40,486 bases of DNA, taken from Bacteroidia bacterium (GTDB lineage Bacteria; Bacteroidota; Ignavibacteria; UBA10030). Positions 35,071 to 40,486 of this stretch are shown here, piece by piece (position 1 is the stretch's first letter; every line of letters begins with the position of its first letter). The DNA is taken from positions 1 to 40,486 of the forward strand of contig BQML01000039.1 in assembly GCA_022180565.1 (NCBI GenBank), given 5' to 3'. The position numbers and the translations under genes are program-made. The notes beneath the pieces are model-generated. The model saw nothing but the letters and a program-made list of their open reading frames with translations, did no database searches and was not told where the DNA came from.

Positions 35071-36045
35071 ATGGACGCACAAGACTATCTGCGGAGCCAG
35101 CTTCTTGACCGAAAGACCCGCCTCCTTGCCGCCATGAAACGGGGGAGCAGTGAACATCTGATCTCCCTCATGCAGGAAGTGGATTCGGCCCTTCAAAGGA
35201 TGGCCAAGGGCACATACGGGATCTGCGAGACCTGTCATGATTCCATTGAGCATGAGAGGATCATGGTTGATCCCCTTGCCAGGAACTGTCTGGATCATTT
35301 GAGTGCCGACGAGCAACGCGTTCTGGAACACGATCTTGACCTTGCTTATCAGGTTCAAACCAGATTACTGCCCAAAAAGGATCTGGAGGTGGGAAGATGG
35401 CGTACGGCGTACCATTACGAGCCATCGGGGCCGGTAAGCGGGGATTATTGTGATCTGATTGTCCCTGAAAACGAGGACGGTGCGGTATATTTCTTCACCG
35501 GAGATGTTTCCGGCAAGGGCGTGGCTTCATCAATCCTGATGGCGCAGCTCTATGCAATTTTCAGAAGTCTCACCAGGGATCCTGAACCGATTCATAAAGT
35601 CGTAGAGACCGCAAACAGCCTCTTCTGCGAGTCTGTCATGGTCGGTCATTTTGCCACTCTTGTCGGAGGCAAGGCTGGTGCTTCAGGGATGATTCATCTC
35701 TGCAATGCCGGTCACTGTCTGCCGCTGTTGGTAAAAAGGGGCAACGTTGAGATTCTCCCGTCCACGGGACTACCGATTGGAATGTTTTGCAGATCAGAAT
35801 ATGAATCCCTGCAGGTCACGCTGGAACCCGAAGACACCCTCATTCTCTACTCCGATGGGATCACCGAGGCGCGGAATGCCTCGCACTGGCAATATGGGGA
35901 GCAACGATTGAGGGAAGTTGTGGAGGGCAACTTCATGCTGGCGCCACAAGACCTTCTCAGGGTGTGTATCGAAGATGTGAAGAAGTTCAGGAACGGTGTC
36001 CCAGCCTCGGATGACATGACGATGCTGGTACTCCGAAGAAGCTGA
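35071..36045 (+). CDS. Fusion of DksA/TraR-type zinc finger with PP2C (RsbU-like) phosphatase
   Basis: The 324-residue protein joins two modules. Residues 1-80 are a coiled-coil plus a DksA/TraR-like zinc finger, GTYGICETCHDSIEHERIMV, with ligands Cys52, Cys55, Cys73 and His76 (C-x2-C, then C-x2-H). Residues about 90-324 are a SpoIIE/RsbU phosphatase with GPVSGDYCDL, GDVSGKG, NAGHCLPLL, YSDGITEARN and SDDMTMLVL, all metal-binding positions present. It is cytoplasmic. DksA-type fingers act at RNA polymerase and PP2C partners act on anti-sigma antagonists, so the fusion may place a partner-switch phosphatase near RNA polymerase. That is inference. It stands alone, converging on the next gene. 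Confidence 0.87.
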   Translation: MDAQDYLRSQLLDRKTRLLAAMKRGSSEHLISLMQEVDSALQRMAKGTYGICETCHDSIEHERIMVDPLARNCLDHLSADEQRVLEHDLDLAYQVQTRLLPKKDLEVGRWRTAYHYEPSGPVSGDYCDLIVPENEDGAVYFFTGDVSGKGVASSILMAQLYAIFRSLTRDPEPIHKVVETANSLFCESVMVGHFATLVGGKAGASGMIHLCNAGHCLPLLVKRGNVEILPSTGLPIGMFCRSEYESLQVTLEPEDTLILYSDGITEARNASHWQYGEQRLREVVEGNFMLAPQDLLRVCIEDVKKFRNGVPASDDMTMLVLRRS

Positions 36046-39295: not shown

Positions 39296-39363
39296 CGGAA
39301 CGTAGCGCAGCTCCCGAAGGGATCCCTTTCCCGAAGGACCCCTTCGGGGCGGGACCGGTAGCG
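39296..39363 (+). pseudogene. Broken tRNA-Pro 5' fragment interrupted by a 43-nt palindromic insert
   Basis: CGGAACGTAGCGCAGC (39296-39311) and CCGGTAGCG (39355-39363) together match the 5' end of tRNA-Pro: acceptor strand, D-stem and D-loop. Between them, at 39312-39354, is an insert that starts with T, ends with GGGA, and contains CCCGAAGG/CCTTCGGG hairpins. It falls exactly in the D-loop, leaving the flanking tRNA sequence unchanged. The following 18 nt resemble a decayed anticodon arm, and the GIY-YIG ATG starts at 39382. There is no tRNA 3' half here. Confidence 0.7.
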
Positions 39364-39381
39364 GGCGTTGTGGGGGAGTAG

Positions 39382-39651
39382 ATGTATTGGATGTATGTTT
39401 TGTATAGTGAGAAGTTGGGCAAGTGTTATATTGGCCAAACCAACGATCTGACCGAGAGGTTGATTCGACACAATTCAGGTGGAAGTAAGTACACCAGATC
39501 CGGTCGACCATGGATATTGATCCATGCGGAAGAGTACAAGACACGAGGTGAAGCAGTAAAGCGAGAAAGATTCCTTAAGTCTCCATCAGGGTGGTTGGAA
39601 CTGAGGAAGATGAAAGAGAAGTTCTCTTCGGAACGTGGCGCAGCCCGGTAG
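39382..39651 (+). CDS. Small GIY-YIG nuclease-superfamily protein, ending inside tRNA-Pro
   Basis: The 89-residue protein is a complete small GIY-YIG domain: MYVLYSEKLGKCYIGQTNDLTERLIRHNSGG carries the Tyr of GIY, the YIG motif and the catalytic Arg. Later come SGRPWILIHAEEYKTRGEAVKRERFLKSPSG with the metal-binding Glu. Similar single-domain proteins are widespread in Bacteroidota; some families are nicking enzymes, others are unassigned. Its last 23 nt overlap tRNA-Pro, and its stop TAG is the TAG of the tRNA D-loop (GGTAG). Such an overlap would be expected if the gene inserted next to or within a tRNA target. Confidence 0.85.
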   Translation: MYWMYVLYSEKLGKCYIGQTNDLTERLIRHNSGGSKYTRSGRPWILIHAEEYKTRGEAVKRERFLKSPSGWLELRKMKEKFSSERGAAR

Positions 39652-39702
39652 CGCACTTGCTTGGGGTGCAAGGGGTCGCGGGTTCAAATCCCGCCGTTCC
39701 GA
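39629..39702 (+). tRNA. tRNA-Pro (anticodon GGG)
   Basis: The 74 nt fold perfectly. Acceptor stem CGGAACG/CGTTCCG has the C1:G72 pair typical of proline, with discriminator A. The D-arm is GCGC/GCGC, and the anticodon stem CTTGC/GCAAG has loop TTGGGGT (GGG). A 5-nt variable loop and T-arm GCGGG/CCCGC with TTCAAAT complete it. CCA is not encoded. It is followed 4 nt later by an intrinsic terminator and overlaps the end of the GIY-YIG gene. Confidence 0.95.
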
Positions 39703-40056
39703 CAACCGACAGCGGGAGGCCACAACACGTCACGCTGTCGTTTTTTTTGGGGGGGTAGGATGATGTATAAGTTCTATGTCTTAAGGAGCCAGCGAATGGG
39801 GAAGTATTATCGCGGACAGACTCGAGACATCAACAAGCGAGTTTTGCACCATAATCGTGGAGATTCTCGCTCAACAAAAGCTGGGAGGCCTTGGAAGCTT
39901 GTGTACAGTGAAGAATATTCAACGAGGGCAGAAGCTGTGCGACGCGAGAATTTCTTGAAGTCTCCGACCGGCTACAGGAGTGGAAGACAATTCGACTGGC
40001 GATTGAGGCGAAGGAAGAAAGGTAGCGCACTTGTGCCGAAGGCATCCCTTCGGGAC
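39661..40056 (+). repeat. Tandem repeat unit, copy A (396 nt)
   Basis: Starting in the tRNA anticodon loop, the unit holds the tRNA 3' half, the terminator, a GIY-YIG gene, the 13-nt tRNA word GGTAGCGCACTTG and a palindromic insert. It repeats directly at 40057 with near identity. Confidence 0.9.
39707..39748 (+). terminator. Intrinsic terminator of tRNA-Pro
   Basis: An 8-bp perfect stem CGACAGCG/CGCTGTCG with an 18-nt loop is followed directly by T8. It starts 5 nt after the tRNA end. Confidence 0.88.
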
Positions 40057-40098
40057 TTGGGGTGCAAGGGGTCGCGGGTTCAAATCCCGCCGTTCCGA
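40021..40098 (+). pseudogene. Broken tRNA-Pro copy with 22-nt palindromic insert in the anticodon stem
   Basis: GGTAGCGCACTTG (40021-40033) and the stretch from C40056 to 40098 are identical to tRNA-Pro from the D-loop to the discriminator base. They are split by a 22-nt insert (40034-40055) that starts with T, ends with GGGA, and forms a 7-bp hairpin CCGAAGG/CCTTCGG with loop CATC. The tRNA 5' end (acceptor strand and half the D-arm) is missing, so it cannot fold as tRNA. Confidence 0.8.
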
Positions 40099-40102
40099 CA
40101 AC

Positions 40103-40145
40103 CGACAGCGGGAGGCCACAACACGTCACGCTGTCGTTTTTTTTT
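40103..40145 (+). terminator. Second copy of the tRNA-Pro terminator
   Basis: The same stem CGACAGCG/CGCTGTCG as at 39707, here followed by T9. It belongs to repeat copy B. Confidence 0.8.
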
Positions 40146-40157
40146 GGGGGGGGTAGG

Positions 40158-40310
40158 ATGATGTATAAGTTCTATGTCTTAAGGAGCCAGCGAATGGGGA
40201 AGTATTATCGCGGACAGACTCGAGACATCAACAAGCGAGTTTTGCACCATAATCGTGGAGATTCTCGCTCAAACAAAAGCTGGGAGGCCTTGGAAGCTTG
40301 TGTACAGTGA
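40158..40310 (+). pseudogene. GIY-YIG nuclease gene, copy B, truncated by frameshift
   Basis: It starts with the same MMYKFYVLRSQRMGKYYRG as copy A. An extra A near 40272 shifts the frame after GDSRS and gives a stop at 40308-40310. The remaining nucleotides still match copy A, so this is a recent duplicate with a decayed frame or a sequence error. Confidence 0.7.
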
Positions 40311-40419
40311 AGAATATTCAACGAGGGCAGAAGCTGTGCGACGCGAGAATTTCTTGAAGTCTCCGACCGGCTACAGGAGTGGAAGACAATTCGACTGGCG
40401 ATTGAGGCGAAGGAAGAAA

Positions 40420-40486
40420 GGTAGCGCACTTGTGCCGAAGGCATCCCTTCGGGACTTGGGGTGCAAGGGGTCGCGGGGTCAAGTCC
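40420..40486 (+). pseudogene. Third tRNA-Pro-like fragment with palindromic insert, cut by window end
   Basis: The word GGTAGCGCACTTG (from 40420), the 22-nt palindromic insert and the tRNA anticodon region repeat again. The last 16 nt differ from the earlier copies at two places (T to G, A to G) in the T-arm, just at the window end. Confidence 0.65.

Follow-up and report, generated by a model that had tools for sequence, protein, structure and literature searches.

Candidate miniature mobile elements that pair a GIY-YIG nuclease gene with a broken tRNA copy in bacterial chromosomes

The closest described system is SegB of the T-even phages. In phage T6, this free-standing GIY-YIG homing endonuclease, according to the accessible part of its published account, cuts within tRNA genes at the motif RAWTSGAAC and was shown experimentally to be required for the tandem amplification that links tRNA-Tyr and segB; in phages it is found preferentially close to tRNAs, of many isotypes (PMC13096335). 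By our own reading of the motif, its reverse complement appears to resemble the T-loop. SegB behaves similarly to the elements reported here (PMC13096335), whereas a preliminary description of the present locus had named no element of this exact structure. Both have a free-standing GIY-YIG gene beside tRNA genes, as far as the accessible portions of the SegB literature go (PMC13096335, PMC2988022), and T4 segB is located between tRNA-Arg and tRNA-Ile. However, SegB has 221 aa with extra sequence beyond the nuclease domain and resides in phage genomes, whereas the nuclease studied here (ORF-A) has 89 aa and is chromosomal, and the accessible text on SegB describes no hairpin-broken tRNA copy (PMC13096335). 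At the protein level, ORF-A is like the UPF0213/Slx1-like proteins (1zg2 and 1ywl; Slx1, 6seh), which also consist of a single minimal GIY-YIG domain. In a 2006 survey, the Slx1-like GIY-YIG proteins of prokaryotes are predicted to be enzymes of repair or recombination, and its accessible part does not mention tRNA-gene linkage, partial tRNA copies, or arrays (PMC1564403).

The whole unit reported here spans ~300-450 bp, contains a single GIY-YIG gene and no integrase, and duplicates either the 5' or the 3' part of a tRNA, which distinguishes it from integrase-borne islands. Such islands insert at tRNA genes with a replacement tRNA stretch that keeps the gene functional, and this feature is shared. 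There may also be a likeness to REP/RAYT systems, where a nuclease gene is bordered by short palindromes and similar palindromes are scattered in the same genomes; the present elements differ from these in having a GIY-YIG domain instead of a Y1 (HUH) transposase, and in having palindromes that lie inside the tRNA copy and are variable in sequence. We found no description of a tRNA-linked, hairpin-bearing element in the literature, although most subscription papers were outside the search, so that this absence is weak evidence. What is new relative to SegB is a single-domain, chromosomal nuclease gene carrying a hairpin-broken tRNA copy.

The window, i.e., the whole stretch of DNA analysed, is the entire contig C39 (40,486 bp) from a 3.0-Mb genome of 111 contigs that was scored 100% complete; the named members of its family are Ignavibacteria MAGs. 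Its right end contains one intact tRNA-Pro(GGG), three GIY-YIG frames, and three broken pieces of the same tRNA, and the alternation of these parts given in the preliminary description was confirmed using ARAGORN, Pfam, and local alignment. Their order is a 5' tRNA-Pro piece with hairpins, ORF-A, the intact tRNA-Pro, ORF-B, a 3' piece with hairpins, a second ORF-B, and a further 3' piece; by our preferred reading, the window holds two elements, one on each side of the same tRNA-Pro. The broken 5' copy (39296-39363, + strand), recognised by local alignment to the intact tRNA and by direct repeats D4 and D5, comprises tRNA positions 1-16 (39296-39311) and 17-25 (39355-39363), which are separated in the D-loop by a hairpin-rich 43-nt insert with a perfect 8-bp stem (39312-39354, no strand assigned; TCCCGAAGGGATCCCTTTCCCGAAGGACCCCTTCGGGGCGGGA). 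ORF-A (39382-39651, + strand), preceded by GGGGGAG, which resembles a ribosome-binding site, encodes the 89-aa single-domain GIY-YIG nuclease (Pfam PF01541, E 4.5e-15). It overlaps the intact tRNA-Pro(GGG) (39629-39703, + strand; ARAGORN; RF00005, 65.8 bits), and its stop codon is the TAG within the D-loop of that tRNA (GGTAG).

Downstream of the intact tRNA, a spacer on the + strand (39704-39759) contains a terminator-like GACAGCG...CGCTGTC with a T-run and, before ORF-B, a G-run. The first copy of ORF-B (B1; 39760-40020, + strand) is a second GIY-YIG type (Pfam PF01541, E 4.3e-13) with an intact catalytic domain (39766-39969). The broken 3' copy that follows (40021-40099, + strand) consists, by local alignment, of tRNA positions 19-31 and 32-75, split in the anticodon arm by a 22-nt double hairpin (40034-40055; TGCCGAAGGCATCCCTTCGGGA). 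The spacer is then repeated (40100-40157, + strand), and the second copy of ORF-B (B2; 40158-40419, + strand), whose frame is broken by a 1-nt insertion relative to B1, precedes a second broken 3' copy with the identical hairpin, ended by the end of the contig (40420-40486, + strand). Both nuclease types had been described as ending, or potentially ending, at the TAG of GGTAG. This holds for ORF-A, whereas the C-terminal frame of B1, as assembled, continues through GGTAG into the tRNA piece; the corresponding stop exists only in the neighbouring frame and is hence presumed for ORF-B. The repeated unit is ~398 bp long with copies 98-99% identical, and the single-base changes within base runs close to the end of the contig resemble assembly noise. 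Because all B units carry the same hairpin at the same place, they look like one tandem duplication and not, as had been proposed, like fragments left by separate earlier rounds.

Since the window is the whole of C39, the array extends past the contig end. Contig C20 starts with the same 72 nt (hairpin plus 3' half, 99%) and continues into a different flank, which indicates that the array is real and supports the join C39-array-C20. The broken pieces stand between the ORFs and the native flanks, with the 5' piece at the native upstream flank and the last 3' piece, on C20, adjoining the native downstream flank. Elsewhere in the window (35071-36045), we observed a 324-aa protein in which a DksA/TraR-type zinc finger, barely above the Pfam cut-off, is fused to a SpoIIE phosphatase domain.

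The same anatomy was found in this genome at tRNA-Arg(CCG), tRNA-Ala(CGC), and tRNA-Asp(GTC), including in the interior of the large contigs C35 and C9, and each of these small GIY-YIG genes has, across the ORF, a partial copy of the same tRNA with hairpins inside the copy. Two other GIY-YIG genes in the genome encode long proteins, with 271 and 614 aa in the open frame, and have no adjacent tRNA; proximity of an ORF to a tRNA by chance is ~1% in this genome. At L001 (C76, 2060-2428), a second tRNA-Asp-linked GIY-YIG copy is interrupted by a sequence whose reverse strand, judged by eye, resembles an insertion-sequence transposase.

The AlphaFold model of ORF-A has a confident GIY-YIG fold (mean pLDDT 94). 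UPF0213 BH0048 and Slx1 were the nearest structures (Foldseek ranks 1-12), and profile matches were obtained to 1zg2 (E 1.1e-16) and Slx1 (E 1e-9); these best profile and fold matches, together with the minimal single domain, place the protein among the UPF0213/Slx1-like nucleases. The residues invariant among 25 diverse members include Y5, Y16, G18, R26, H30, and E62 (ORF-A numbering), which are the positions expected for GIY-YIG catalysis. The homing-type domain lies outside any intron or intein, with PF01541 in the sole ORF of the unit. One orthologous pair indicated purifying selection (dN 0.027, dS 0.40), and a second pair was too similar to judge. Homology to SegB beyond the fold was not detected for ORF-A, as BLASTP matched only a non-catalytic stretch (21.6 bits), and the PHROG families gave no match.

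GIY-YIG genes were present in all 32 of the 32 genomes from the family of the window, and the profile of the tRNA-linked type matched 227 of 395 genomes drawn from the phylum. Loci were collected by protein similarity and not by tRNA; the profile for the contig scan was a six-sequence alignment of the tRNA-Pro types, which biases that sample toward their relatives. The linkage count covered 170 ORFs of the tRNA-linked type, drawn from a dozen phyla or more, that had 200 nt or more of sequence on each side. An intact tRNA occurred within 200 nt of 133 of them, always on the same strand (0 opposite), and the ORF preceded the tRNA in 71 cases (type A) and followed it in 62 (type B). Only 5 of 47 weaker-scoring control GIY-YIG ORFs had such a tRNA. 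This contrast is partly circular, as tRNA-linked members were used to build the model that gave the score threshold between the two sets, but neither the same-strand rule nor the within-locus fragment test is affected by this. This strong enrichment agrees with the core of the original proposal, namely that a selfish GIY-YIG element is linked to a tRNA gene and preserves an intact tRNA. Among the 37 ORFs that had no intact tRNA, 25 had a tRNA piece on the same strand (several of these ORFs were inner members of arrays), and some tRNA-like match was found in the flanks of 12 of the 47 controls.

The 80 named loci belonged to Bacteroidota, many candidate (CPR) lineages, Omnitrophota, Zixibacteria, Chloroflexota, Planctomycetota, Acidobacteriota, Nitrospirota, Elusimicrobiota, Verrucomicrobiota, Lentisphaerota, and others, and single phylum labels may be wrong because most of these loci are metagenome bins. 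Phages and plasmids were rejected as the usual carriers: 2.9 million viral contigs yielded just four loci, none with a same-strand tRNA within 200 nt, phage matches were weak, and there was no plasmid match. Between the tRNA copies there was no ORF other than the GIY-YIG gene, which rules out an integrase island with GIY-YIG cargo. A group I intron in the tRNA anticodon loop was likewise rejected, since the tRNA beside the ORF is complete and its second copy incomplete.

Across the ORF, 134 of 142 cases had a piece of the same tRNA whose score exceeded that of all 60 shuffles, and 94 of these pieces had an insertion of at least 8 nt, most visibly one or two short hairpins. Perfect stems of at least 6 bp occurred in 91 of 127 fragment regions, compared with 45 of 127 equally long flanks beyond them (paired Wilcoxon p = 2e-6), 25 in the intact tRNAs, and 12 after shuffling; the flanks are themselves rich in hairpins, so that the enrichment over them is only about two-fold. 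Within the inserts, a stem of at least 6 bp was present in 57 of 94, by a criterion that misses double mini-hairpins with 4-bp stems. The insert position was similar for the same tRNA across lineages, as illustrated by tRNA-Cys, where it was position 33 in three CPR genomes with differing stem sequences. The preliminary description had missed these hairpin inserts. Hairpin control of translation is known for T4 homing genes, according to the accessible part of that account (PMC2988022), but regulation of ORF translation is not a general role here, because the hairpin comes after the ORF in the tRNA-upstream type. ARAGORN called some hairpin-bearing broken copies as tRNAs of other identity (Leu and Cys; L192 1775-1851 and L141 1099-1169), and such copies are a likely source of false tRNA annotations.

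Comparison of empty and occupied sites, suggested at the outset, was possible at tRNA-Arg(TCG) and tRNA-Glu(CTC), with the polymorphism lying between species and not within one species. Most of the 59 genomes of a Flavobacteriaceae-like genus have a lone tRNA-Arg(TCG) immediately after the upstream gene, i.e., an empty site, while four carry the element and one an ORF-less relic. The occupied fragment reads GGCTCCATAGTTCAACTGGATA-[CCTGCCTGCCGCAGGCAGG]-GAATATCAGATTT, a pure hairpin insertion between otherwise contiguous tRNA bases. A different genus provided all three alleles at tRNA-Glu(CTC): occupied, empty, and a relic that retains only fragment and hairpin, with no ORF. The occupied Flavobacteriaceae-like allele L250 has an intact tRNA-Arg(TCG) that is only ~75% like its genus and a genus-typical broken piece, and we suspect that the element there brought or replaced the tRNA (a co-converted foreign tRNA). 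Tandem arrays, which according to an early concern might vanish as products of assembly, occurred in complete, single-contig genomes with 3-5 copies: tRNA-Asp with 5 ORFs every 315 bp, tRNA-Leu with 5 every 450 bp, and tRNA-Ser with 3 ORFs. Within the arrays, the hairpin-bearing piece recurs at the same place from unit to unit, as would be expected from tandem duplication by recombination between tRNA stretches. Overall, the earlier interpretation is partly supported: its core survived both of the refuting conditions set out with it, namely a lack of enrichment beside tRNA genes and the loss of the array as an assembly product.

A FastTree tree of 143 nucleases, weakly resolved for a domain of ~75 residues, required 45 changes of tRNA isotype (shuffled mean 103.5, minimum 96) and 77 changes of phylum label (shuffled 100.5, minimum 93). 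Outside Bacteroidota, the closest row belonging to a different phylum shared the isotype in 14 of 32 cases, with 2.6 expected. The isotype association is far outside the shuffles, which supports target specificity and some horizontal movement.

We consider it probable that these loci are miniature, tRNA-gene-specific mobile elements, each consisting of one GIY-YIG gene and a duplicated tRNA stretch, and spread by cutting and repair; both cutting and mobility are what we infer from the observed arrangement, with the ORF flanked by an intact tRNA on one side and, on the other, by a same-strand partial copy that adjoins the native flank. The nuclease would cut or nick the tRNA gene of an empty allele in its loop regions, and repair from the occupied allele would copy in the ORF along with a stretch of tRNA from which a functional tRNA is rebuilt, allowing the host to survive. 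The tRNA copy left on the native flank would be the old target, kept broken by hairpins that would prevent both re-cutting and loss of the element through recombination between the repeats. Recombination between tRNA repeats could then generate arrays. In the ORF-upstream type, the ORF is located behind the native tRNA promoter region, and its stop codon is often supplied by the tRNA. The best reading is that the elements may work like a SegB-type homing gene, presumably through cutting, with a protein of the Slx1/UPF0213 branch. Several points argue against this mechanism: unless the native flank is part of what is recognised, the intact tRNA of the occupied allele should itself remain a target; a protein of 90 aa offers little space for recognising a specific sequence; and immunity alone does not explain the universal use of hairpins rather than other damage.

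A tentative alternative, which we regard as possible but unlikely, is that the nuclease, as a member of the Slx1/UPF0213 branch, responds to DNA structure (hairpins or cruciforms) and not to sequence, the hairpins being ends or substrates for the moving element and tRNA genes being targeted because their arms fold. The nearest solved structures, UPF0213 and Slx1, a nuclease of branched DNA, favour this view, as does the retention of hairpin shape with variable sequence at similar tRNA positions in different phyla; the isotype-specific clades, however, suggest that sequence or position counts too. Palindromes of the form TCCCGA...TCGGGA would also favour it. They numbered 2-108 per genome across the 32 family genomes, some within open reading frames, and across 98 genomes of the class their number correlated with that of the nucleases (Spearman 0.65, p 3e-13, ignoring relatedness; 0.02 for an equally composed control palindrome), with medians of 2 in nuclease-free genomes and 21 where there were at least four nucleases. 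Because relatedness was ignored and the scattered copies examined were mostly outside tRNA pieces, this correlation is a lead to the broader version given below and not a result. The tRNA-copy hairpins are unlikely to be neutral hits of such dispersed palindromes, which are 2-108 per genome, yet hairpins occur in most fragments. A broader version, which seems doubtful to us, is that a minimal GIY-YIG nuclease of the Slx1 type forms a new kind of mobile system, one that moves or maintains short DNA hairpins. It would find tRNA genes by their structure, the hairpins would serve as its recognised ends or as marks of immunity, and the palindromes scattered in these genomes would be its products.

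It is improbable that the ORF is a domesticated or cargo gene, i.e., a host repair gene co-transcribed with tRNAs by chance, beside tRNA pieces that are ordinary duplications. Although duplications and insertions are common at tRNA loci, such a gene would not be expected to be patchily present at the same site among close relatives, to occur in many copies per genome at different tRNAs, or to have a matching tRNA piece across nearly every ORF and form tandem arrays; the repair role predicted for prokaryotic Slx1-like proteins, in the accessible part of the survey, speaks for it (PMC1564403). That the assembler made the repeated unit at the contig end, as the array running off that end and the single-base differences of the last copy might suggest, is very improbable in view of the continuation from the same piece into a different flank on C20, the same anatomy inside C35 and C9, and arrays of 3-5 units within single-contig genomes, the last of which refute an artefact for the family as a whole.

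Read as miniature tRNA-gene-specific mobile elements, these loci raise the question of why hairpins are so frequent in the broken tRNA copy. They would account for many GIY-YIG genes annotated as orphans and for many annotated tRNA pseudogenes, and the range of GIY-YIG enzymes that target tRNA genes would reach beyond phages, to chromosomes across many bacterial phyla. A family so small, widespread, and regular would be a simple model of a parasite that resides in an essential gene and spares its host.
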